DNA of 64,000 bases from Polyangium sp. 15x6. Its GTDB lineage: Bacteria > Myxococcota_A > Polyangia > Polyangiales > Polyangiaceae. The position numbers were made by a program, and so were the translations under genes. The notes beneath the pieces were generated by a model that ran no database searches, was not told where the DNA came from, and worked only from the letters and a program-made list of their open reading frames with translations. This document shows, one piece after another, positions 6,892 through 33,676 of this stretch (the stretch's first letter is position 1; each line of letters starts with the position of its first letter). The stretch lies in NCBI RefSeq assembly GCF_029960785.1, contig NZ_JASBQE010000029.1:1-64000 (forward strand). The letters run 5' to 3'.

Positions 6892-7275
6892 ATGATGACC
6901 AGCACGCTGCACGAGACCTTCGTCGTCCTTCTGTTCAGCGCAGCCGCCGCCGCCGCCGGCTGCTTGCCCGATTCCGCGGGACCCGCCACGCCGGCGAAGC
7001 CGCTCGTCGAGATCACCGAGATTGAGGGCGCGGTGGCCGCCGAGGACCAGAGCGCGCTCGCGGACCAGATCCCGTGCGCGGGCGCGGCCGATTGCCACTC
7101 CGACAAACCCGCGCTCGCGAGCGTCGACGCGTGCATTCAAGATTCGGCCTGCGCTGCGAGGCTCGGCAAGCTGCTCCAGGGCCTGCTCGTCGCCGAAGGG
7201 ACGCCCGTGCACACCGCCGTGGAGACGGGCGACCACCGGCGCGTGGTGGCGGCGCGGGGCTCGCGTGCGCATTGA
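6892..7275 (+). CDS. short lipoprotein, probably frameshifted
   Basis: A strong ribosome-binding site (AGGGAGG at 6877-6883) precedes the ATG at 6892. The product begins with a signal peptide and lipobox AAAAGC, followed by a mature part with two closely spaced Cys pairs (CAGAADCHSDK, CIQDSACAARL). The frame stops at 7275 after 127 residues. A shifted frame beginning near 7250 then continues with credible protein sequence (ALNDASGTEFQIESYDDD) up to about 7390. The gene therefore looks interrupted by a one-base indel near 7245-7260 and may be a pseudogene or a sequencing error. No family is recognised. Confidence 0.55.
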   Translation: MMTSTLHETFVVLLFSAAAAAAGCLPDSAGPATPAKPLVEITEIEGAVAAEDQSALADQIPCAGAADCHSDKPALASVDACIQDSACAARLGKLLQGLLVAEGTPVHTAVETGDHRRVVAARGSRAH

Positions 7276-7399
7276 ACGACGCGAGTGGAACGGAGTTCCA
7301 GATCGAGAGCTACGACGACGATAAAACCTTCTGCATCGACAAGCCTTCCCTGTTCGTGACCCGCTTCACCACCGCTCCGACTCGTGATAGGAAGGGTCC

Positions 7400-8641
7400 A
7401 TGCGAGGACGGAAAACGAATTGGCTTGGGATGGTCGTGGGCGGTTTGTCGCTCGGGCTCGCGCTCGTGGGTGCGTGCTCGGCGTCGGGCGGGAGCGGGAC
7501 CGGGAACGGCGCGAGTGAAGGCGCGGGCGCTTCTGGCGCTTCGGGGCAAGGCGGCGCGGGCGCGTCGGGCGGCAATGGGCCCGGCCCGGGCGGCAGCGGC
7601 GGCGGCACTTTCGTCGGGTCGTCGAGCAGCGGCACGGGCGGCGGGCTCCCGGACGCCGATACGTGTGCGAGCGTCTCGTCCGAGGCGACGGCGGGCAAGC
7701 AGCCGGCGGATATCATCATCGCGGTCGACACCTCGGGCAGCATGGACGAGGAGATCGCCGAGGTGCAGGCGAACCTGAACAAGTTCGCGCAGCTCATCAC
7801 GGCGAGCGGGATCGACGTGCACGTCGTGATGATCGCGGACGCGACGATGTGCATCCCCGCGCCGCTCGGCAGCGGGAGCTGCAATGGAATGGACGAGAAG
7901 CTCCCGGGCTACCGGCACGTCGTGCAGACCGTCGCCAGCACGGACGCGTTCCAGCAGATCCTGAACACGTATCCGCAATGGAAGGACGTGCTGCGGCCGA
8001 ACGCGGTGAAGACGATCGCCGTCGTGTCGGACGACAACTCCGACATGGCCGCGAACACGTTCGTGAACCAGCTCCTCGCGCTCGACCCGACGTTCCAGGG
8101 CTTCAAGTTCGACGCGATCGTCTCGTTCGAATCGGGCGAGCAATGCATCTTCCAGTGCGCCTTCGGCAACTGCGCGAATTGCCCGTTCACCTGCTGCAAC
8201 AAGCAGTCGTTCGCGTGTGAGCCGATCTCGGCGGCGGAGGGCACGGTCTACAAGCAGCTCGTGCAGCAGACGGGCGGCGTCCTCGGCAACCTCTGCACCC
8301 AGAACTTCGACCCGGTCTTCAACGACATGGCGACCGCCGTCGTCTCGGAGGCGAAGATCTCCTGCGATTACCCGATCCCGGTTCCGCCCGACGGCACGAC
8401 GATCGACCCGAAGAAGGTCAACGTCGTCTACACGAACAGCAATGGCACGAAGACCACCATTTACAACGTGCCCACGGGTCAGGCCGATTGCGGGAACACG
8501 GGCGGCTGGTATTACGACGTGCCCGGCGCCCCGACGAAGATCTCGATGTGCCAGAATACCTGCGCCGCGCTCCAGGGCGACGCGGGCGGGAAGGTCGAGG
8601 TGCTCTTCGGCTGCGAGACGCAGATCAAGCCGCCGGAATGA
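7400..8641 (+). CDS. vWA-domain lipoprotein
   Basis: This 413-residue lipoprotein has its signal peptide ending at VGAC, a long Gly/Ser/Ala tether at about residues 27-80 and a von Willebrand factor A domain. The metal-ion-dependent adhesion site is DTSGSM (Asp110-Met115), with further likely ligands downstream (VVSDDNSDM). A Cys-rich insert follows (CAFGNCANCPFTCC). Such surface vWA proteins bind proteins or other ligands through a divalent metal. A ribosome-binding site AGGAAGG precedes the ATG at 7400. It ends only six bases from the converging gene at 8648. Confidence 0.88.
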   Translation: MRGRKTNWLGMVVGGLSLGLALVGACSASGGSGTGNGASEGAGASGASGQGGAGASGGNGPGPGGSGGGTFVGSSSSGTGGGLPDADTCASVSSEATAGKQPADIIIAVDTSGSMDEEIAEVQANLNKFAQLITASGIDVHVVMIADATMCIPAPLGSGSCNGMDEKLPGYRHVVQTVASTDAFQQILNTYPQWKDVLRPNAVKTIAVVSDDNSDMAANTFVNQLLALDPTFQGFKFDAIVSFESGEQCIFQCAFGNCANCPFTCCNKQSFACEPISAAEGTVYKQLVQQTGGVLGNLCTQNFDPVFNDMATAVVSEAKISCDYPIPVPPDGTTIDPKKVNVVYTNSNGTKTTIYNVPTGQADCGNTGGWYYDVPGAPTKISMCQNTCAALQGDAGGKVEVLFGCETQIKPPE

Positions 8642-8647
8642 TCGGAT

Positions 8648-9493
8648 TCAATCCTCCGGCGACGCCCACGCGTGGCGCCGGACCCACGTGCCCACCAGCG
8701 TCGCTTGCACGACCGCCGCGGTCGTGATCACGAGCCCCACGAAATACTGCCCGAAGAACGGGATGAACCCCACCGTGTAGGCCGCGAGCAGGATGGCCGC
8801 CATGCCTGCCGCGGTCGACGCGACGAAGAGCCCGAGGAGCTTTCCGTAGGCTCGTGGCGAATGCGAGACGATCGCTACCCAGGCGACCGGCCAGAGGCCA
8901 TTGATGGCGTGCCCGGTCATCGAAATCGCGAGGATCACCGCGGGCGTCACCGCGATCCCCACGAGGGTGAGGGCGAGCGTGAGCCACACGTTTCCGGGCA
9001 GGAGGATCGCCGAGAGGAGCGCCGGCCAGAAGCCTCCGAGCACGCACACGAGGCCGCGGAGGAACGAAAGAAAAAGATCCCAGCGCGAGGTGAAGCTCGC
9101 CGAGAAAGGGAGGCCCGGCGCGTCGCGGCCCACGTGCTCCACGATCTGGAAATACGCGGCGGAGAGCGTGCCGAGGTAGATCACGTTGAAAAACGTGGAT
9201 ATGGAGGCCACCGGGATCGCGGTGAGCCAGTAAGGCACGGCGAGCGCGGCGAGGAGGAGCATGCCCTCCTCGTCGAAGGGGCGTCGCAATGCGAGGGCGA
9301 AATCCTCGCGCTCGGGGCGCTCGGGCTCGGGCAGGGGGCTCGCGAGGGCGCCGCAGCGCGGGCACATCGTCAAGGGACGCGGGTTTTGCTCCGTGACGAA
9401 GAGCTTTAGGCACGGCGTGCAATGGAGCGCGCCGCATTGCGTGCACGCGTGCGTCGCGCTCGTCCCGGGGTGTGCCTGGCAGGGGCCCGCCAT
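8648..9493 (-). CDS. zinc-ribbon/B-box-like polytopic membrane protein
   Basis: The N-terminal 55 residues of this 281-residue protein carry a Cys/His pattern (CQAHPGTSATHACTQC, then CTPC and CPRCG) typical of a B-box-like or zinc-ribbon module. The remainder has about six hydrophobic helices. This layout, with a soluble zinc module followed by an integral membrane domain, is common among uncharacterised deltaproteobacterial proteins; the function is unknown. The ATG at 9493 was chosen because it starts directly before the zinc-binding motif. It lies 49 bases downstream of the pxpB-pxpC gene on the same strand and could share its transcript. Confidence 0.75.
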   Translation of the reverse strand: MAGPCQAHPGTSATHACTQCGALHCTPCLKLFVTEQNPRPLTMCPRCGALASPLPEPERPEREDFALALRRPFDEEGMLLLAALAVPYWLTAIPVASISTFFNVIYLGTLSAAYFQIVEHVGRDAPGLPFSASFTSRWDLFLSFLRGLVCVLGGFWPALLSAILLPGNVWLTLALTLVGIAVTPAVILAISMTGHAINGLWPVAWVAIVSHSPRAYGKLLGLFVASTAAGMAAILLAAYTVGFIPFFGQYFVGLVITTAAVVQATLVGTWVRRHAWASPED

Positions 9494-9542
9494 CGAAGGG
9501 GGATCGTTACCCGACCTGGGCGGAAAAGGCAATGACGAGCCG

Positions 9543-11048
9543 TCAGGCGCCGCGCCCGAAACGCAATCGTTCTCCGGGCCGAAGCCGCGCGAGCGTGCCG
9601 AGGGACGCGCGTCGCACGACGGCGAGGACCGGATACCCGCCCGTCGTCGGATGATCCGGCCCGAGCACGATGGGCGTGCCGTCCGTCGTGACCTGCACCG
9701 CGCCCCGTAACATCGGGACGGGCAGGGCGAGATCGGGCCGATCGCGCGGTATTTTCGCGCCTTCGAGCCTTTGCCCCACCCGATCGCCGAGGCGCGAGAC
9801 GGTGAACGTGGACGCGAGGAGCACATCGAGCGCGTCCGCGGGAAAACGGCCTCGATGCGGACCTTCGTCGATCACGATCGTCGCGATTTCGTTCTCTGCG
9901 GGCGGCGTGGAATGGCGCGAAGGCCGCGCGGCGGTGGATTCCAAATCGCCCACGGGCACGACGTCCCGCCGCCGGAGCGCGCGTCCCGCGGCGCCGCCGA
10001 GGCGCGCGACGAGCAAGGTCGCCCGCGCGCCGAGCGCCATGGGTACGTCCATCCCGCCGCGCGCCGCGAGATAACGCACGGCGCGGGGGCCCTCCTCCAC
10101 GCGGAACGAGTCTCCCTCCGCGAGACGAACGGGCGCCGCGCCGTCCACCGAAAGGATGACCTCTCCCCGGGCCCGCACCGAAAGCGCGCCGAGGGGCACC
10201 TCGATCGCCGCTGCACCGGGCGCATTGCCCACGGCCTCGTTCGCGGCCGCGTGCGTCTCCGGATCGAGCGGCCCCGACGGCGGGAGCCCCCGCGCGAGTT
10301 GCCCCGCGCGTCCTCCATCCTGCACCGTCGCGCACGCGGGTGCGGCCTCCACGACGAGGGCGCGGATGGATTGTTCATTTGGGACAATCTCCTTCCGCGC
10401 CGGCACCGGCTCCGCCTCGCTCACCGGCTCGAACCGCACCCGATCCCCCGGCGAAAACAGAATCGGCGAATCACGGCCTGGATCAAAGAGCGAGGCCCCG
10501 GGCGCGCGGCCGAGCAGATTCCATCCCCCGGGCGAATCGAAAGGATAGATCCCGGTGAACGTCCCCGCGATGCCCACGCTGCCCGCCGGCACGCGTGGGC
10601 GCGGCGAGCTCCGGCGCGGCAAAACCAGCCTGGGATCGATCGGCCCGCAATACCCGAATCCCGGCAAGAACCCGACGAGCTCGACCGTGACCTCACGCTC
10701 GGCGTGCAGGCGCACGACAGCCTCCGTCGATACACCGAGCGCACCCGCGATCGATTCCAGATCCGGCCCATCGTACACCACGGGGATCACGTGCGTTCGT
10801 CCGGACACATGTGCCCTCGCCGCGCCGGAAACCGCGGCCGTGATCGTCCGGACAACCTCGTCCGAGCACGCGACGTTCGCCACGACGACCACGCCGCCGC
10901 CGACCACCACGTCGCTCCCCGGAAAAACCTCGCGCAACGCAGCGGCCGCCGCATGCGTTCGCGCGGCCCGATCCGGCGCGCTCTCCACGCCGAGATCGAC
11001 GTACACCGCCGATTCCCCGTACGAAAGGACGCCCGCCCCGCCGCTCAC
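9543..11048 (-). CDS. pxpB-pxpC: fused 5-oxoprolinase subunits PxpB-PxpC
   Basis: The 501-residue protein joins the two domains that are usually separate subunits of the ATP-dependent 5-oxoprolinase. The PxpB part (about residues 5-210) includes GFLPGFGYCG and PRPRVPAGSVGI. The PxpC part (about 225-500) includes ATVQDGGRAGQ and HPTTGGYPVL. With PxpA the complex hydrolyses 5-oxoproline (pyroglutamate) to glutamate. The GTG start at 11048 overlaps the TGA stop of pxpA in a GTGA, indicating translational coupling. The long open frame upstream of 11048 is antisense-like sequence within pxpA and is not part of this protein. Confidence 0.92.
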   Translation of the reverse strand: MSGGAGVLSYGESAVYVDLGVESAPDRAARTHAAAAALREVFPGSDVVVGGGVVVVANVACSDEVVRTITAAVSGAARAHVSGRTHVIPVVYDGPDLESIAGALGVSTEAVVRLHAEREVTVELVGFLPGFGYCGPIDPRLVLPRRSSPRPRVPAGSVGIAGTFTGIYPFDSPGGWNLLGRAPGASLFDPGRDSPILFSPGDRVRFEPVSEAEPVPARKEIVPNEQSIRALVVEAAPACATVQDGGRAGQLARGLPPSGPLDPETHAAANEAVGNAPGAAAIEVPLGALSVRARGEVILSVDGAAPVRLAEGDSFRVEEGPRAVRYLAARGGMDVPMALGARATLLVARLGGAAGRALRRRDVVPVGDLESTAARPSRHSTPPAENEIATIVIDEGPHRGRFPADALDVLLASTFTVSRLGDRVGQRLEGAKIPRDRPDLALPVPMLRGAVQVTTDGTPIVLGPDHPTTGGYPVLAVVRRASLGTLARLRPGERLRFGRGA

Positions 11049-11755
11049 GCCCGCCCCCGCGTTTCCAGGAGCCCCGCCAATTCGAGCCCTCCCCGCACGG
11101 CCCGCGCAATCGTGAGCGCGCCGGGCGTATCCCCGTGCACGCAAAGCGTTTCGAACGTGCCCGCGGCCGCGAGGCGCAACGCCTGCGCCCGCGCCGACGC
11201 CGGATCCGTGATCAACGCGCCCGCCTGCGTGCGTGGCACGAGTTTTCCCTCGGGCCCGTACGCCCGATCGGCAAACCCCTCGCGCAGATACGCGCGCCCC
11301 TCCGCCGCCGCGAGGCGGGCGAGCGCGCCCTCGGGCGGACCCACGAGCGCCACCCGAGCCCCGAGCCCCGCGTCGATTCCCGAGGCGACCGCCGCCGCGA
11401 TCGCCGGATCCCGCGCCGCATCGTGATAAAGTGCGCCGTGCGGTTTCACGGCCTCGATCGCAATGCCCACCCGCCGCGCCACCCGGGCGAGCGCCTCGAC
11501 CTGCGACCGCACGGACGCCGCGAGCTCCGCGCTCGTCATCACCACGCTCGTCCGGCCAAACCCGGCCCGATCCGGGTAGGAGGGATGCGCGGCGAGCCGG
11601 GCGCCCGCGCGGCGCGCGAGCTCGCACGCACGTTCCATCGTGGCCTCGTCGCCCGCGTGCCCGCCGCACGCGACGTTGACCATCGTCGCGATCGAATAAA
11701 GCTCCTCGGGTTCGCCCGGTAGCTCGCCGAGGTCCACGTTCAGTGAGACGGCCAT
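11045..11755 (-). CDS. pxpA: 5-oxoprolinase subunit PxpA (LamB/YcsF family)
   Basis: This 236-residue LamB/YcsF-family protein has the usual N-terminus (SLNVDLGE), the metal-site region NVACGGHAGD, VKPHGALYH in the middle, and the conserved LCVHGDTPGA near the end. It is the third component of the 5-oxoprolinase that opens the pyroglutamate ring. It is the first gene of the coupled pair with the fused pxpB-pxpC, whose GTG overlaps its stop. The start at ATG 11755 fits the family N-terminus. It is slightly shorter than the usual 245-250 residues. Confidence 0.93.
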   Translation of the reverse strand: MAVSLNVDLGELPGEPEELYSIATMVNVACGGHAGDEATMERACELARRAGARLAAHPSYPDRAGFGRTSVVMTSAELAASVRSQVEALARVARRVGIAIEAVKPHGALYHDAARDPAIAAAVASGIDAGLGARVALVGPPEGALARLAAAEGRAYLREGFADRAYGPEGKLVPRTQAGALITDPASARAQALRLAAAGTFETLCVHGDTPGALTIARAVRGGLELAGLLETRGRA

Positions 11756-21590: not shown

Positions 21591-23306
21591 TTACTTGCAC
21601 TTCTTGAAGAGACCGACCCCCGTGCATTTCGTGCCGGTCTTCGCCGTGCTCGTCGGCTTCGTCGTCGGCGTGGGGTTCGTCTTCGTCGTGCTACCGCCGC
21701 CGCTGCCGCTCGACTTCGCGGTGTTCGCGGCCTGCGCCGTCTCTTTCGGGGCCTCGGCGAGCTTGAATTCCTTCTCGAACTTCTTGCCGGCCTCGATCGT
21801 GATGTCTTCGCTCTGCGTGACGTACCCGGCCTTCGAGAGCTCGACCTTGTGCGCGCCCGGCGCGAGCTTGAGCTTCGATGGATCCTCGATCGCCTTGTCG
21901 TCGACCTTGATCGTGTCGCAGCCCGGGTTGCACTTGATCGCGACCTCGACCTCCTCGGCCGCGGGCGGCGGCGTGGGCGGCGGCGTCTCGCCCGTGCTCG
22001 GGGGCGCCGCGGTGCTGTCACCGGTCGTGGTCGGCGCGCCCGTCGGCGTGATGGCGATCGGCGCGTTCGGGTCGTCGCCCTCTTTCTTGTCCTTGCCGCC
22101 CGCGATGATGAACGCGCCCACCGCGCCGCCGATGAGCAGCACGGCCGCGACGCCGATGATGATCGGCAGCTTCTTCGAGCCGCCGCCGGCATCCATCGGC
22201 AGGCGCGGCGCCGCCGTCGTCGGCGCCGCCGGGCCGGGGCCCATGCCCATGCCCATGTCCGCGTTCGTCGGTCCGCCCGGACCCATGCCGGGACCACCCA
22301 TGCCGCCTCCGGGCGGAGGCGGCGGCGGGTAGCCCGAGCCATCATTCGCGCCGACGGGCTGGTACACCGGCACCGCGGCCGTCGGGCCCATCGGATCGGC
22401 GCCGCCGATCGCGGGGAACGCGATGGTCGCGCTCGTGGCCATCTCGGGCATGTTCGCCGCGGCGGAGAAGGCCACGGCGAGCTCGCTGGCCTGGCGGAAG
22501 CGCTCGTTCGGATCGAGCGCGAGCGCGCGATTGAACACCGCGTCGAGCACGGGCGAGACCATCGCGCCGAGCTCCTGCGCGCGCTGCGACGCGGGCTGGC
22601 GAGGGCCGACGAGCTCGTGTTGCCACGAGGCGAGGTCGGGCTGCGCGCCCTGGCAGGAGCGCCAGTACGGCCGGCCCGTGAGCGCGTAGAAGAGCACGAG
22701 GCCCATCGCGAACACGTCGGCCGCGGGGCCCGCGGGCGCGCCGCCTTGCATTTGCTCGGGCGCGACCCAGGGCGCGGCGATCGCGTAGCCCTCGTTCGTC
22801 TGGACGTAGCTCCGCGCGAGGCCCGCGCCGAAGTCCATGATGCGCACGGCGAAGCCTTGCGGCGCGACGAACACGTTCGTCGGCTTGAGCGCGTGATGCA
22901 TGAGCTGCCGCACGTGGGCGTTGTCCAGCGTGCGCGCCATGTTCTGCGCGATCTGCGCGACCTCCTGCGGCGAGAGCGGGCGCTGCGAGACGAGCTGCGC
23001 GAGTGACGGCGTCGGTGACAGCTCCGTCACCGTGAAGGGCGCGGCGGTCTGCGGATCATAACCCGCGTCGAGGACCGGCAGCACGGCGTCGGGCGGCAGC
23101 CCGTTCGTCGCCGTGTAGATCTGCTCGATCATCGTCATCACTTCGGGGCGCTGCGCGATGTTCGGCGAGTAGATACGCACCGCCATCGCGCGCCCCGTCG
23201 CGTCGATGACGCGGTAGGTGGCCGAGGAGCCGCCGTTGCCCAGGAGGGCCTGGACCGAGTATTTTCCCGCGATGACGTAGCCGGGGGAGAGCTGGGGCGC
23301 GGTCAC
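21591..23306 (-). CDS. PEGA-domain pseudokinase
   Basis: The 571-residue protein has a kinase fold, but key residues are missing. The Lys of VAIK is Arg44 (AVRIY), and the catalytic HRD is HHA (His137, His138, Ala139) in HHALKPTN. The DFG (Asp158) and APEQ motifs are intact. It is therefore likely to bind nucleotide or partners without phosphotransfer. A Gly/Met/Pro-rich linker, a transmembrane helix at about 385-408 (PIIIGVAAVLLIGGAVGAF) and a PEGA domain (AIKCNPGCDTIKVDD, LKLAPGAHKVELSKAGY) follow. The GTG at 23306 is used. A lipoprotein gene lies eight bases upstream, so the two genes form an operon. Confidence 0.88.
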   Translation of the reverse strand: MTAPQLSPGYVIAGKYSVQALLGNGGSSATYRVIDATGRAMAVRIYSPNIAQRPEVMTMIEQIYTATNGLPPDAVLPVLDAGYDPQTAAPFTVTELSPTPSLAQLVSQRPLSPQEVAQIAQNMARTLDNAHVRQLMHHALKPTNVFVAPQGFAVRIMDFGAGLARSYVQTNEGYAIAAPWVAPEQMQGGAPAGPAADVFAMGLVLFYALTGRPYWRSCQGAQPDLASWQHELVGPRQPASQRAQELGAMVSPVLDAVFNRALALDPNERFRQASELAVAFSAAANMPEMATSATIAFPAIGGADPMGPTAAVPVYQPVGANDGSGYPPPPPPGGGMGGPGMGPGGPTNADMGMGMGPGPAAPTTAAPRLPMDAGGGSKKLPIIIGVAAVLLIGGAVGAFIIAGGKDKKEGDDPNAPIAITPTGAPTTTGDSTAAPPSTGETPPPTPPPAAEEVEVAIKCNPGCDTIKVDDKAIEDPSKLKLAPGAHKVELSKAGYVTQSEDITIEAGKKFEKEFKLAEAPKETAQAANTAKSSGSGGGSTTKTNPTPTTKPTSTAKTGTKCTGVGLFKKCK

Positions 23307-27993: not shown

Positions 27994-28890
27994 ATGACCG
28001 AGCCCGTTTATCCGTTCGTCGCCGTCGACGTCCCCCGCGATCGAGCCGAAGAGCTCGGCGCACACCTCTTCGATCTCGGCGCCATGGGCGTCGAGGAGCG
28101 CGACGAGCAGACGCTCGCGAAAGGCGCGGGCTCCGGACAGGTGACCCTCGTCGCGAGCTTCTCCACGCGCGAAGAAGCCGACCAGGCGATCGCGGCGCTC
28201 GTCGAGGAGGACCCCTCGCTCGCGCCGCGCATCGAGGAGATCGTGGGCGACGCCTGGCGCGACGCCTGGAAGCAGCACTTCGAGCCGTTCCAGTTCACGT
28301 CCGACATCGTCGTGGTGCCGCCGTGGGTCGCTTACGAGAAGAAGCGCGCGGACGAGCACGTGCTCGAGCTCGAGCCGGGTCGCGCCTTCGGCACGGGCCT
28401 GCATGCGACGACCGCCCTCGTCGCCGAGATTCTTCACGATCGTAAGAGCTCGCTTCCGGGCGCGCGTGTGCTCGACGTCGGCACGGGCAGCGGGATCCTC
28501 GCGCTCGTCGCGCTGATCTACGGCGCCGCGAGCGCGCTCGCGATCGACAACGACCCCGAGGTCATCGACGTCGTGCGCGAGAACGCCGAGCGCAATGGCC
28601 TCGTCGATCGCGTCGTCGTCCGCGAGCAGACGATCGAGCACGTGACCGAGACGTTCCCCGTCGTGCTCGCGAACATCGAGACGCGCGTGCTGCGTCCGAT
28701 CGCGGAGGATCTTGCGCGCGCGGTCGCGCCTTCGGGGCTCTTGATCCTCTCGGGGATCCTCGCGGCCGAGCACGACGAGATCGTCGCGCGGTACACCTCG
28801 CTCGCGCGTTCGCTGCGCCACCTCGAGACGCGACGCCGCGGCGACGGCACGGGCGACGACTGGGTCGCGATCGCGTTCGCTGCGTCATGA
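27994..28890 (+). CDS. prmA: ribosomal protein L11 methyltransferase
   Basis: PrmA trimethylates ribosomal protein L11. The 298-residue protein has the N-terminal substrate-binding domain, the conserved DAWKQHFEPF and GRAFGTGLHATT segment, SAM-binding VLDVGTGSGILAL at about residues 157-170, and the catalytic VLANIE. The stop overlaps the start of rsmE in ATGA, so the two rRNA/ribosome-modifying genes are translationally coupled. The ATG at 27994 fits the family start. Confidence 0.95.
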   Translation: MTEPVYPFVAVDVPRDRAEELGAHLFDLGAMGVEERDEQTLAKGAGSGQVTLVASFSTREEADQAIAALVEEDPSLAPRIEEIVGDAWRDAWKQHFEPFQFTSDIVVVPPWVAYEKKRADEHVLELEPGRAFGTGLHATTALVAEILHDRKSSLPGARVLDVGTGSGILALVALIYGAASALAIDNDPEVIDVVRENAERNGLVDRVVVREQTIEHVTETFPVVLANIETRVLRPIAEDLARAVAPSGLLILSGILAAEHDEIVARYTSLARSLRHLETRRRGDGTGDDWVAIAFAAS

Positions 28891-29615
28891 GGGGCCCGCT
28901 GCGTGTCCCCGTCGCCCGCGTCGAGGCGGGCTCTTCGATCCTCGACGAAGACGCCTCCCGGTACGTCGCGCGCGTGCATCGCAAGCGCCTCGGCGATCGC
29001 GTGGTGCTCTTCGATCCCGACCGCGCGATCGAGGCCGACGCCGAGATCACCGCGATCGATCGCGCGAGCGTCTCCGTCGTCGTCGAGGAGCCCCGCGCGG
29101 CCACGTTCCTGCCTGCGCGCCGCGTGACGCTCCTCCAGGCCACGTGCAAGAGCGACAAGTTCGACGCCATCGTCCGTGACGCGACCGAGCTCGGCGCGAG
29201 CCGCGTGGTCCCGATCGTCGCCGAGCGATCCGTGGGCCGCCCCGCGGACGGCCGCGCGGCGCGGTGGCGCCGCATCGCGGTCGAGGCCGCGCGGCAATGT
29301 GGTCGCGGCGACGCTCCGGCGATCTCATCGCCGATGGAGCTCGTCGAGGCCGTGCAGCTCTTCGCCTCGGGCGAGGGCGTTCATGGCTTCTGCCTGGATC
29401 CCGTGGCCGACGCGCCGCTCGGCCCGGCGATCCGGCGCCTCGGCCCGGAGGTCGAGCTCGCGTTCGTCGTGGGCCCCGAGGGGGGTTTGTCGCCGGCCGA
29501 GATCGAGGCGTGCACCTCGGCCGGCCTCTCGCGTGTCTCGTTCGGCCCGCTCACGCTCCGCGCCGAGACGGTATGCGCGGCGGTGCTCGGCGGCGTGGTG
29601 CTCCTCTCGCGATAA
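28887..29615 (+). CDS. rsmE: 16S rRNA m3U1498 methyltransferase
   Basis: RsmE methylates N3 of U1498 in 16S rRNA. The 242-residue protein has the N-terminal PUA-like domain and the SPOUT methyltransferase fold with its conserved knot motifs: RVTLLQATCKSDKFD, ELGASRVVPI, FVVGPEGGLSPAEIE and LRAETVCAAVL. The ATG at 28887 overlaps the stop of prmA by four bases. The pairing of prmA with rsmE is common in bacteria. Confidence 0.95.
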   Translation: MRGPLRVPVARVEAGSSILDEDASRYVARVHRKRLGDRVVLFDPDRAIEADAEITAIDRASVSVVVEEPRAATFLPARRVTLLQATCKSDKFDAIVRDATELGASRVVPIVAERSVGRPADGRAARWRRIAVEAARQCGRGDAPAISSPMELVEAVQLFASGEGVHGFCLDPVADAPLGPAIRRLGPEVELAFVVGPEGGLSPAEIEACTSAGLSRVSFGPLTLRAETVCAAVLGGVVLLSR

Positions 29616-29628
29616 CGCCTCGCGCCGG

Positions 29629-29699
29629 GGACAAACGCCGCGGACAAACGCGGGCCGCGGACAAACCCCGCATCGGACTTGACAAACCCGGGCGCCCGG
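29629..29699 (+). promoter_or_regulatory. four GACAAAC direct repeats and a palindrome upstream of the kinase-nuclease pair
   Basis: The 98-base gap between rsmE and the histidine kinase gene holds four copies of a nine-base element: GGACAAACG (29629), GGACAAACG (29642), GGACAAACC (29659) and TGACAAACC (29680). The spacing is 13, 17 and 21 bases. A perfect 12-base palindrome CCGGGCGCCCGG (29688-29699) follows. TTGACA at 29679 matches a sigma70 -35 element, but no good -10 is seen. The cluster may be an operator recognised by the kinase's own winged-helix-like domain, which is a guess. Confidence 0.5.
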
Positions 29700-29713
29700 C
29701 ATCACCTTCCGGC

Positions 29714-31261
29714 GTGTCTTTCCTCGACGACGTGCGCCGCACTCTCGATCGCCCGGAGGGCTCCTCGTGGGCGCTCTCGGGCCTCGGCGCGCATCGGAAG
29801 ACGCTGCTCGACGCGCTCGAGGTCCTCGAGGCGCGCGGTGAGCCCGAGGAGAAAATCGAGCGCTTGCACGACGTCTGGTCCGACAAGCTCGGGGCGTTCG
29901 TCCAGGAAATGCAGCGATTGCTGGAAGGAGGCCTCGCGTTCGGCGCGAGCGCCGCGGAGCAGCATGCGCTCGTCGACGTCGCCCTCCGCCGCCGGCTCGG
30001 TTTGTCCGATTCGGCTGGCTCGCGCATCCGCGATCGCGAGCTCGATCGCCTCTCCAGCGAAGTCCTTTTCTCCATCCAGCGCCCCGAGCGCACCCCGACC
30101 CTTTGGCCCGAGCGGTATGCGCTCGAAGTGCGCGCATTGCGGCGCGCCGAGGGCGAGACGCTCCTCACGCCCATTGGCCGGCTCGTCCTCGGCCTGCCCG
30201 AGCGGGATGCCGTCCGCTGGCTGCTCGCCGTCGAGGTCGCGCAATCGCGCGGGCCCTCGGATCCTTGGCGATTGTCGCGCGCGGCCGCGGCGCGCCTCGT
30301 CGCGGCCCGCAGGCTCCGTGTCTTCTGGTATGGCAGCGAAGTGGCCGCGCATCCGCAATCGCTCGATCGTCTCGCTGCGCTCGGCCTCCTTTCGTTCGAG
30401 GACGAGGCCGAGGAGGCGCTCACCACCTACGAGCTCACCGAGAATGGCGCCGAGCTGCTCGCCGAGGTCGCCTCGGGCGATACGCCGATGGTCCTCCTCG
30501 CCGGCGCGCTCATTCAGGACGAGACGGCCGCCGTCCTCGGTCGCATTCGCGCTGCCACGACATTGATCCAGCGCGAGAGCGCCGCATTCGCCATGACGCG
30601 GCACGCGCGCATGGTCGCGCACGAGATCCGCAATGCCCTCGTCCCCGTGCGCGAGGCCATCGACGACCTCTTCGCCTCGCTCCAGCGCGACGGCCGCGGC
30701 GCGCTCGTCGATCGGCACGGCGCCACCATCACGGGCGGCGTGGATCGCATCTTCCGATTCATGACCGAAATGGCGCAGGTCGTCGAGCGCGCCGGCCCTC
30801 CGCCCGAGCCTTTCGACGTCGCGGCGGCCATCGAGGACGCGCTCGCCGCCCTCGCCGAGGAGCTCGGCCGCGTCGCGTTCTTCGACCGGCCTCGCTTCCT
30901 CCCGCCCGTTCGTGGCCGCCGGGATCGGTTCGTCCTGGCCATCGTCGATTTGCTCCGCAATGCGGCGCGCGCCCGCGACGACCGTCCGGCCGAGATTCGT
31001 GTGGCCGCCGCGCTCGACCCCGACGGCGCCATCGTCGTCACCGTCGACGACGACGGCCCGGGCGTCCCACCCGAGTATCGAAAAGCGATCTTTGCGCCCG
31101 GGTTTTCCCTGCGCCCGGGTGGGACGGGGCAGGGGCTCGCGCTCGTGCGCGAGGTCGCGCGCGCGGAGCTCGGCGGCGAGGCGCATTGTGAAGAGAGCCC
31201 GCTCGGCGGCGCTCGATTCGTCCTCCGCCTGCCCGTGGATGCCGGAAGGAGCGCCGCGTGA
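29714..31261 (+). CDS. cytosolic histidine kinase with N-terminal winged-helix-like region
   Basis: This 515-residue protein has no transmembrane helix. The first 270 residues are helical, ending in a winged-helix-like segment (around TTYELTENGAELLAEV, a form common in wHTH domains) at about residues 160-265. A histidine-kinase core follows: His303 in VAHEIRNALVP, the N box DLLRNAARA, the G1 box DDDGPGVP and the G2 box GGTGQGLAL. It should autophosphorylate on His303. The GTG at 29714 begins the protein-like sequence (MSFLDDVRRTL). Its stop overlaps the GTG of the response-regulator gene in GTGA, so the pair is coupled. Confidence 0.88.
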   Translation: MSFLDDVRRTLDRPEGSSWALSGLGAHRKTLLDALEVLEARGEPEEKIERLHDVWSDKLGAFVQEMQRLLEGGLAFGASAAEQHALVDVALRRRLGLSDSAGSRIRDRELDRLSSEVLFSIQRPERTPTLWPERYALEVRALRRAEGETLLTPIGRLVLGLPERDAVRWLLAVEVAQSRGPSDPWRLSRAAAARLVAARRLRVFWYGSEVAAHPQSLDRLAALGLLSFEDEAEEALTTYELTENGAELLAEVASGDTPMVLLAGALIQDETAAVLGRIRAATTLIQRESAAFAMTRHARMVAHEIRNALVPVREAIDDLFASLQRDGRGALVDRHGATITGGVDRIFRFMTEMAQVVERAGPPPEPFDVAAAIEDALAALAEELGRVAFFDRPRFLPPVRGRRDRFVLAIVDLLRNAARARDDRPAEIRVAAALDPDGAIVVTVDDDGPGVPPEYRKAIFAPGFSLRPGGTGQGLALVREVARAELGGEAHCEESPLGGARFVLRLPVDAGRSAA

Positions 31262-32190
31262 GACCGATGGGCCGCATTTTGATCATCGACGACGACCCGA
31301 GCTTCTTGCAGCTCTATCGCGCGCGGCTCGGCGCCGAGGGGTATCTCGTCGAGACTGCGAACGAGATCGAAACGGCGCTCGTGCGGCTCGACCAGGGCGG
31401 CTGGGACGTCGTGCTCGTCGATCAGAAGCTCGACGGCAAGACGGGCCCGGACACCGGGCTCGACCTCGTCTCCGAGGTTTCCCGACGCGCGCCGCTCGCG
31501 AAGACCATCCTCGTCACGGGGTATGCCACGGAGGCGGCGGTCACGCGTGCGTTTCAGGACGGCGCTTACGATTACCTCGAAAAAGGCCCGATCTTCCGGG
31601 TCCTCTTGCTGGCGAAACTACGCAATGCGCTCGAGGCCGTGCGGGCACACCATTACGGCGAGCTCTCCTCGGACGAGGCCGAGGCGGCGATTCGCGACAC
31701 CTGGGCCGCGGCCGAGAGCGAGACGGATCCGAACCGCAAGGGCAAGCTGCTCGAAGACCTCATGGTCCTCGTCTTCAAGACGATCCCCGGCTTTCGCCAC
31801 GCCTCGGCCCGGCGCCGCAACGAGGAGGAGGAGATCGACCTCGTCATTCGCAACGAGTCCACCGATCCCTTCTGGGTGAACGAACGCACCTCGTACATCC
31901 TCGCCGAATGCAAGAACTGGACGCGGCCCGCGGGCGCCACGGAGATACGGAGCTTCTTGTGGAAGCTCTCGCGCAAATTCAATCGATCCCGCCTCGGTCT
32001 TTTCATTGCGCCGGGCGGTTTTTCCGCGCCCTTGCGCAGCGATCTGCACGGCGAGCGCCGGGATGATTATCTCGTTTTGCTCATCGGAAAGGCCGACCTC
32101 CGGGAGCTCGTCCTCGCGCCGGATCGAAATGCCTTCATGAAGAAGTTGCACGAACGGGCCGTGCTCGAATTGCACGGCGAGGTCCGTTGA
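31258..32190 (+). CDS. response regulator fused to a PD-(D/E)xK nuclease-like domain
   Basis: The 310-residue protein has a complete receiver domain (about 1-125): acidic pocket Asp11-Asp13, phosphoacceptor Asp55 in VLVDQK, Thr87 and Lys109. In place of a usual DNA-binding output, residues 155-290 resemble a restriction-endonuclease-like fold: Glu166 in KLLEDLM, Asp194 in EEEIDLVI, and Glu217-x-Lys219 in ILAECKNW, with a flanking Arg/Asn-rich RRRNEEE. This matches E...D...ExK of Mrr/PD-(D/E)xK nucleases. It is the likely partner of the coupled kinase and could be a phosphorylation-controlled nuclease. The GTG at 31258 is used; an ATG at 31267 is possible. Confidence 0.85.
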   Translation: MRPMGRILIIDDDPSFLQLYRARLGAEGYLVETANEIETALVRLDQGGWDVVLVDQKLDGKTGPDTGLDLVSEVSRRAPLAKTILVTGYATEAAVTRAFQDGAYDYLEKGPIFRVLLLAKLRNALEAVRAHHYGELSSDEAEAAIRDTWAAAESETDPNRKGKLLEDLMVLVFKTIPGFRHASARRRNEEEEIDLVIRNESTDPFWVNERTSYILAECKNWTRPAGATEIRSFLWKLSRKFNRSRLGLFIAPGGFSAPLRSDLHGERRDDYLVLLIGKADLRELVLAPDRNAFMKKLHERAVLELHGEVR

Positions 32191-32197
32191 GAAACCG

Positions 32198-33676
32198 TCA
32201 GCGCTTGCGTGCGCCGATCAGCTTCCGCAGGGCCTCGGCCAGCGTCGGGTAGGTGCGGCGCGATTGCATGTCGACGCCGAGGTCCACCATCGTCTTCGCC
32301 ACGCTCGGCCGGATCCCCGAGAGCAGCCCGGTCGCGCCGACGAGCTCCACGCTGCGCATCACGTTCGAGAGGTGCTGCGCCGCCTCCGCGTCGACCGTGT
32401 CCACGCCCGTCAGGTCCAGAATCACCGCGCTCGATTGCCGGCAGACGACCTCCGTGAGCAGCCGTTCGAGCAGGATGCTCGCGCGGGCCTGGTCGATCGA
32501 GCCGATGAGCGGCACGACGAGCACGCCCTGCCAGACCTCGATGATCGGGCTCGACAAACCGATGATGGCTTGCTTTTGCGATTGGATCAGCGCGACCTGC
32601 TCTTCGAGCCGCCGCTGGTTGTCCACGCGTTCCGTCACGTTCTCGGCCACGGAGTAGATACGCACCACGCGGTCGCCGAACGTGTCGCGCACGGGGATGA
32701 TCGTGTTGCGCCAGTGCGTCGTGACATGCGATATCTCGGAGGCGACCTGCTCCCCAGCGAATGCCCGCTCCATGTCTGCGCGGAAGTCCTCGCGGCCGCC
32801 ATAAACCTCATAGAGGTTTTTTCCGACGAGCTCGCCGGGCGCGAGGCCGAGGTCCTTGAGGCCGTTTCCCAGGGACATCTTGCACGTCCCGTCCGCGTCC
32901 ATGGCCCAGATCGCGAGGGGAAGCTCCGAGAGCGCCCGGATCAAGGCCTTGGCCTGGAGGGTCTCTTCCGAGTTCTCGTTGGCGCGGAGCGAGAATCCAA
33001 CGATTGCGGTGACGTCGCCGGCCGCGTCTCGTACGGGCGTGAGACGGCGTATCCAGTCGGACATGCCTTCGATGCTGTCCCCGTAGAGCTCCTCCCCTGC
33101 GAGGGCGCGCTCGGTCTCCTCGCGTGCGACCGATCCGGCGGGATAGAGCTTGAACGCATTCATGCCGACGAGCGCGCCCGGCTTGACGCCGAAGTGGGCG
33201 AGCCCCCTGCCTTCCGAGACCAGGATCGTCCCATCCTTGGCGATCGACCAGAGGATCCCCTCGAATCGATCGAAGATCTTGCCGAGGAGCACGCTCCGGA
33301 GCGGGACGGGCTCGTCTTTCGTGAGGAGCGGCGCCAGTTGCGCTGGAACGTCCGCGCGGGGCTCCGCGGGGCCGTCCCTCCGAACGCATACTCCGCCGTT
33401 CCCGACCGACCACGCGGTCCAGCGTTTCGTCATGCCTGCCGCGGGGCGCGCCAAAAACATCGATTTCGTCGATTGCCCATCCGCCACGGCCGCGCAGGCC
33501 GATGATACAACGCTCCGATCCACCGGATCGAAGAGCGCGAGCAGCGATGAGGCCTCGCCGAGCTCTGCGCGGGCCGCTTCATTTCGCGCCACCACGACGT
33601 CGCCCTCGACGAGCAGCAGTGGATCCGGGCACCCGTCGAACATCCCGCCGAGGTGGCGGTGTATGTCCCCTACCAT
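32198..33676 (-). CDS. multi-PAS STAS-domain regulator (RsbR-like)
   Basis: The 492-residue cytosolic protein has two or three PAS-like domains (around GILWSIAKDGTILV and LPLAIWAMDADGTCKM, plus a weaker N-terminal one). A coiled-coil linker follows, then a C-terminal STAS domain at about 375-490 (SSPIIEVWQGVLVVPLIG, VILDLTGVDTVDAEAAQHL). This layout resembles RsbR-type stressosome proteins, in which a Thr/Ser of the STAS domain is phosphorylated; no RsbS, RsbT or sigma gene is next to it. The ATG at 33676 is the first reliable start. It converges with the receiver-nuclease gene, seven bases apart. Confidence 0.82.
   Translation of the reverse strand: MVGDIHRHLGGMFDGCPDPLLLVEGDVVVARNEAARAELGEASSLLALFDPVDRSVVSSACAAVADGQSTKSMFLARPAAGMTKRWTAWSVGNGGVCVRRDGPAEPRADVPAQLAPLLTKDEPVPLRSVLLGKIFDRFEGILWSIAKDGTILVSEGRGLAHFGVKPGALVGMNAFKLYPAGSVAREETERALAGEELYGDSIEGMSDWIRRLTPVRDAAGDVTAIVGFSLRANENSEETLQAKALIRALSELPLAIWAMDADGTCKMSLGNGLKDLGLAPGELVGKNLYEVYGGREDFRADMERAFAGEQVASEISHVTTHWRNTIIPVRDTFGDRVVRIYSVAENVTERVDNQRRLEEQVALIQSQKQAIIGLSSPIIEVWQGVLVVPLIGSIDQARASILLERLLTEVVCRQSSAVILDLTGVDTVDAEAAQHLSNVMRSVELVGATGLLSGIRPSVAKTMVDLGVDMQSRRTYPTLAEALRKLIGARKR

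Follow-up and report, generated by a model that had tools for sequence, protein, structure and literature searches.

The described systems that come functionally nearest to the gene pair analysed here are Detocs and Shedu; by sequence, the pair belongs to neither. Shedu is a PD-(D/E)xK nuclease that carries a regulatory domain at its N-terminus, the N-terminal domain of Mrr binds DNA, and variants of Detocs with other effectors have reportedly been found. The pair lies in the window (the whole 64,000-nt stretch of DNA that was analysed) and resembles Detocs in that two-component signalling is joined to a destructive enzyme as its output. In the available parts of the sources, Detocs is described as a kinase (DtcA), a receiver (DtcB) and a response regulator (DtcC), with DtcB, the third gene, acting as a buffer protein (PMC11728103), and its effector is listed with a PNP (ATP-cleaving) domain (PMC10952713). 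By contrast, the predicted effector domain in the window is an Mrr-like nuclease. A DtcB-like third gene was not found: the next gene in the window is on the other strand and has no receiver, and a receiver profile detected no second receiver in three further loci, L002-L004.

The likeness to Shedu (SduA, DUF4263) is that a PD-(D/E)xK nuclease follows an N-terminal regulatory domain in both. The PADLOC SduA model PDLC00405 matches receivers of the family described here through its positions 5-121 (E 2e-4 in the window, residues 6-100, receiver only; E 3e-8 in locus L072), suggesting from sequence that the model begins with receiver-like sequence, and that receiver-nuclease fusions exist in the Shedu family too. 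The match is not specific, because the PD-T4-6 and PDC-M60C models also match receivers here. Taken by itself, the nuclease domain matches no PADLOC model at E up to 1, and differs from that of Shedu in belonging to Mrr_cat in Pfam, without a sequence match to SduA/DUF4263. With Mrr and the type IV restriction endonucleases (PF04471) it shares domain family, residues and predicted fold, the difference being that a receiver and a dedicated kinase replace the N-terminal domain of Mrr.

Other reports touch on parts of this arrangement. HEF_HK/Response_reg_2 genes, kinase-like and receiver-like, have been linked to restriction enzymes; in the available part of that text the nucleases are encoded by adjacent genes and the domains in question are PF19191 and PF19192 (PMC8011034), whereas in the window the nuclease is the output domain and the signalling domains are PF02518 and PF00072. 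Neither PF19191 nor PF19192 matches the pair at E up to 10 in Pfam. In type I-B CoCoNuT a receiver (REC) is attached to a nuclease-containing defence system, with control by a kinase suggested by the authors; the system is built on a McrBC-type GTPase, and the available part of the account describes no pair of kinase and receiver-nuclease (PMC11090510). Mrr-like nucleases and receiver domains are also mentioned, in the part of the text available, among the effectors of other conflict systems (PMC7159879). The literature searched, which excludes most subscription journals, gave no account of an Mrr-type nuclease that is fused to a receiver and accompanied by a kinase; as far as the available parts show, PMC8011034 and PMC11090510 come closest.

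The kinase and the receiver-nuclease protein

The host is a soil bacterium with a Polyangium-like genome of 13.4 Mb, and the nearest named relatives at the locus are Polyangium species, with a regulator 97% identical. A soluble histidine kinase gene is followed on the same strand by a response regulator gene, both reading frames having been verified (Table 1); both lie where an earlier note, made from the DNA letters, had placed them, with the GTGA overlap it described.

Table 1. Positions in the window of the two genes and their features
Feature	Position	Strand	Evidence or remark
Soluble histidine kinase gene	29714..31261	+	GTG start, 515 aa; ORF and codon-usage call, HATPase_c
Kinase N-terminal input region, residues 1-288, weak MarR-like hint	29714..30577	+	14-row alignment
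His303, presumed phospho-accepting histidine in H-box	30620..30622	+	Invariant in 14 aligned kinases
HATPase_c ATP-binding domain, residues 403-509	30920..31240	+	Pfam PF02518
GTGA stop/start overlap of kinase and regulator	31258..31261	+	Shared by both frames
Response regulator with nuclease output	31258..32190	+	310 aa; Response_reg and Mrr_cat; 7 homologues aligned
Receiver domain, residues 7-110, with Asp11, Asp12, Asp55, Thr87, Lys109	31276..31587	+	PF00072
Helical linker between receiver and nuclease, residues 113-154	31594..31719	+	Helices 113-134 (low confidence) and 138-154, AlphaFold2
PD-(D/E)xK nuclease domain, Mrr_cat-like, residues 158-302	31729..32163	+	PF04471, model, 2p14 match
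Glu166, glutamate of first nuclease helix	31753..31755	+	Kept in 21/21 rows
Asp194, presumed catalytic aspartate	31837..31839	+	21/21 rows; precedes strand 195-199 (second strand)
Glu217-Cys218-Lys219, (D/E)xK motif	31906..31914	+	Glu217, Lys219 21/21 rows; end of strand 213-218 (third)

The kinase has both the H-box histidine, in the motif VAHEIRN, and the ATP-binding motifs of a two-component kinase (HATPase_c, E 4.4e-19). Residues H303, E304, N307, P311, N416, G448 and G472 are invariant in an alignment of the window's kinase, N-terminal input part included, with 13 homologues encoded beside other receiver-nuclease genes; kinases that are not whole (G066/L035, L083 and L069) were omitted or trimmed. 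A cytosolic location, as previously proposed, agrees with the lack of any membrane-like segment (the highest 19-residue Kyte-Doolittle mean is 1.38). The N-terminal input region had been called winged-helix-like. Its profile, searched against the PDB, gives MarR regulators as the best solved-structure matches (E 0.03-0.17), which hints weakly at such a fold; the structure model of the kinase is poor (mean pLDDT 46), and matches in Pfam are all below cutoff, DUF505 among them.

In the regulator, Response_reg matches at E 3.2e-17, and the receiver has its acidic pocket together with Asp55, Thr87 and Lys109, which are intact as had been noted. Asp55 is kept in 20/20 rows of the receiver-nuclease alignment that span it, Thr87 and Lys109 in 21/21, and Asp11 in 19/20, with glycine at this position in L080. 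The AlphaFold2 model of the regulator was built from 18 rows and has a mean pLDDT of 71. Its receiver half aligns with receiver domains at Z up to 11.6 (VIA-align), with a pLDDT of 54-70 that is low because only four near-identical alignment rows cover this half; the nuclease half mostly reaches 77-93, apart from two weak loops.

The C-terminal domain of the regulator is predicted, from its family match and the model, to be a PD-(D/E)xK nuclease of the Mrr_cat family. It scores 22.8 bits against Mrr_cat, above the curated cutoff of 21, and 13/14 rows of the nuclease alignment A1 match the same family at E up to 1. The modelled elements run helix 158-174, strand 179-182, strand 195-199, strand 213-218, helix 227-240 and strand 246-250, an order of helices and strands typical of PD-(D/E)xK nucleases, and on this predicted core the E-D-ExK residues fall at the expected elements. 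Residues 145-309 match the small subunit of R.BspD6I (2p14) with Z 10.9 and 3.3 Å over 151 residues (VIA-align); the related nickase entries 5liz and 6qnz give Z 10.7 and 10.6, with a worse rmsd than 2p14. A Foldseek search with the regulator model returned no nuclease among the best 50 of 1699 matches, places that were filled by the receiver, and the single nuclease sequence had no match in the PDB. Searched against the PDB, the 14-row nuclease profile gave matches at E 1.1 and 1.3, which we did not count as evidence.

Glu166, Asp194, Glu217 and Lys219 are invariant in all 21 receiver-nuclease rows, which differ at up to 63% of regulator positions, and in the 14 rows of a wider nuclease alignment. 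Other positions nearby are more variable: Lys161 is replaced by arginine in three rows, and a single row departs at each of Trp221 and Glu229. That the four residues are kept across alignments suggests that the motif is more than chance. The earlier note had read these residues as standing in the order of an Mrr-type active site, and Pfam assignment, predicted fold and conservation in homologues all agree with that reading.

Distribution, coupling and selection

A search of 317 genomes of the class with a nuclease-domain profile (A3, E up to 1e-3) gave matches at 34 places in 27 genomes; a receiver precedes the nuclease at 23 of these places, in 19 of the 317 genomes, and at the other 11 the receiver profile found no receiver in the same frame. 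In samples of three outgroup phyla the nuclease profile matched in 3/199, 7/349 and 6/247 genomes, once with a receiver. This last case is from Bacteroidota (L102, whole as L134; Response_reg E 8e-11, Mrr_cat E 2e-9), and brings the total to at least 24 receiver-nuclease genes; a search of 118 other genomes, taken as its relatives, gave nothing at E up to 1e-12. All of these genome counts are lower bounds, because a limited number of candidates was scored per genome. Among the matches listed, all six genomes of the window's genus (its own included) carry the nuclease, and none appears among the misses listed. A second copy in genome G577 (L070, 6340-7281), counted among the 23 places, has an in-frame stop between receiver and nuclease, and its orthologues in G576 (L076) and G579 (L074) are open.

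Such fusions thus exist elsewhere together with neighbouring kinases, and the coupling of kinase and regulator proposed earlier recurs: a kinase gene lies directly upstream of 22 of the 24 receiver-nuclease genes, the exceptions being L080, which is preceded by a different gene, and L077, where the contig ends and cuts the receiver. Nineteen of the 20 junctions examined among the 22 pairs, the Bacteroidota pair included, have a 4-base (A/G/T)TGA overlap; four of the 20 come from one genus, and the one miss is L069, where the kinase frame runs beyond the expected stop. Over 14 pairs, kinase and regulator distances correlate with r = 0.92, as would also arise from plain shared inheritance of any two genes; within one protein, receiver distances correlate with nuclease distances at 0.78. 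The tree partly follows families, with six of 11 inner branches well supported. Together the sequences suggest that the kinase belongs to the receiver-nuclease system. Of the Bacteroidota kinase, only the ATPase part matches the family profile, so that the kinases coupled to this nuclease differ in their kind of input. At L083 the kinase is broken up over two frames; that of genome G066 (L035, 7996-8813) is truncated, with no H-box to be found in any of three frames, next to a regulator whose catalytic residues are kept.

Purifying selection acts on both genes: when the window is compared with three Polyangium genomes, the regulator has a dN/dS of 0.028-0.097 and the kinase one of 0.055-0.102, below or overlapping the low end of the values for two reference genes in the same comparison, rsmE (0.077-0.160) and prmA (0.092-0.208). 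These two genes lie upstream of the pair, and a gene for a PAS-STAS protein lies downstream on the other strand. The upstream gene order is the same in L002-L004, and extra genes are found downstream in L002 and L003, where about 4 kb (6937-11290 and 6955-11281, respectively; by eye a Ser/Thr-kinase-like gene and others) separates the regulator from the PAS-STAS gene; the window and L004 are without this stretch. A gene that resembles glmU by eye precedes the pair in three genomes from another genus. With shared upstream order, housekeeping neighbours and no clear defence gene beside it, the pair is a stable chromosomal locus in these genera, yet patchy over the class.

We considered and rejected a defence island: PADLOC scans of ten neighbours, prmA and rsmE excluded, gave no clear defence gene. 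The gene at 21594-23306 had kinase-type matches, mostly to PD-T4-6, and we read it as a general Ser/Thr kinase; elsewhere there was one weak desaturase-type match. Rfam had no match at gathering score in 28000-33000.

Mechanism and role

We consider it likely that the two genes form a two-component system with a nuclease as output in place of a transcription factor, as the domains, the conserved residues, the predicted fold, the fixed gene coupling, the correlated divergence and the purifying selection indicate. Phosphotransfer, the direction of the switch and DNA as the substrate are what we infer beyond this. The cytosolic kinase would sense an internal signal through its own N-terminal domain and autophosphorylate on His303, from which the phosphate would pass to Asp55 of the receiver. 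In response regulators the phosphorylation path ends with the receiver's output face being altered. In the model, the final helix of the receiver runs through the linker into the nuclease helix 158-174, which carries Glu166, so phosphorylation could act by dimerising the C-terminal domain or by repositioning this helix. Nucleic acid, most likely DNA, would then be cut with Glu166, Asp194, Glu217 and Lys219 and a bound metal. We have taken phosphorylation to turn cutting on, as the more usual direction. A phosphorelay-controlled nuclease had been proposed from the DNA alone, and the predicted fold, the conserved residues and the other kinase-linked fusions support it; against it stand L080, with no adjacent kinase and glycine at the Asp11 position, the truncated G066, split L083 and overrunning L069 kinases, and the low model confidence in the receiver part.

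The likely function of the system is a reaction to DNA that is foreign or damaged, or else controlled self-cleavage. A part in defence, against phage or invading DNA, is plausible, though we would not presume it, given the housekeeping neighbours of the pair and its occurrence in every same-genus genome among the matches listed. The evidence on role conflicts, since genes that by eye belong to mobile elements lie close to relatives of the nuclease that have no receiver: conjugation-type genes at L008, a transposase and a resolvase at L012, and an ArdC-like gene at L011. We hold it possible, with less confidence, that the role is one in stress, repair or development. The nuclease would then carry out a conserved cellular task under kinase control, such as DNA repair, recombination, uptake or developmental DNA breakdown; its constancy within the genus, the purifying selection, the prmA, rsmE and glmU-like neighbours and a tree that partly follows families would all fit. 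A general cellular task is harder to reconcile with occurrence in so few genomes of the class, with the isolated Bacteroidota case, and with the receiver-free relatives, which include an AAA/STAND-like fusion.

A doubtful but far-reaching extension is that such pairs form a class of two-component systems whose histidine kinase directly permits the cutting of DNA, be it of the chromosome or of an invader. The class would be fixed in certain myxobacterial genomes and would serve multicellular life, through controlled self-destruction or the breakdown of DNA, instead of being an exchangeable cassette against phages. The targets of most response regulators are transcription, second messengers or other proteins. 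If this pair does switch a nuclease, DNA cleavage would come under fast, reversible phosphorylation control through a conserved, translationally coupled pair, and one more enzyme would join those that are known, or have been proposed, to act behind receivers in bacterial immunity or cell death.

The switch could also run the other way, with the kinase holding the nuclease off: the phosphorylated receiver would be silent, and loss of signal or kinase would release cleavage, as with a toxin and its restraint. A cytosolic nuclease would need restraint, and the near-constant 4-base overlap and the catalytic residues kept in every row fit such an arrangement; however, L080 and L035, the latter with a kinase that lacks an H-box, persist with intact catalytic residues, which is hard to explain if the kinase is an essential antidote (only adjacent genes being considered), and we regard this version as unlikely. 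Inactive PD-(D/E)xK proteins are known, and DNA binding is usual among response regulators, but that this one is an ordinary DNA-binding regulator that does not cut is very improbable, considering that the four nuclease residues are kept in all rows despite the divergence of the regulators.

Relatives outside the pair

Two of the 50,697 phage records match the regulator, in the receiver part only. Plasmid records matching the regulator number 116, and among the matches listed (30) none covers more than 80% of it; two plasmids match the nuclease, and one matches the nuclease part of the Bacteroidota regulator. The nuclease also occurs on three viral contigs, where the stretches examined gave no match to receiver or kinase at E 1e-3; no viral relative of the Bacteroidota regulator was found. 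A mobile origin of the pair was set aside, the phage, plasmid and viral searches having given partial-domain matches (for plasmids, among the matches listed). On one viral contig (L143, 955-2427), two open frames side by side each match the nuclease profile.

Proteins of about 330 aa (L005-L012, L014, L020 and L023), in records from Acidobacteria, acetic acid bacteria, Sphingomonas, Phenylobacterium, Pectobacterium, Syntrophales and Bacteroidota, have by eye a common N-terminal domain before the same nuclease; two of them were scanned (L005 and L009), with no Pfam match above cutoff. In L034 (331-1977) an AAA_16/STAND-like ATPase is fused to the same Mrr_cat nuclease.

The N-terminal input region of the kinase occurs in a further kinase family, f11 (L136 5626-7452, L137 5044-6756, L138 5129-6841 and L139 883-2736), whose match to the profile of the present family is confined to parts of the ATPase region. 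In the stretches examined around these kinases, no nuclease of the type described here was found, and the same sensor may there feed another output. A fragment of the kinase N-terminus also lies in L135 (1851-3032), between genes that by eye resemble NB-ARC and NACHT ATPases.
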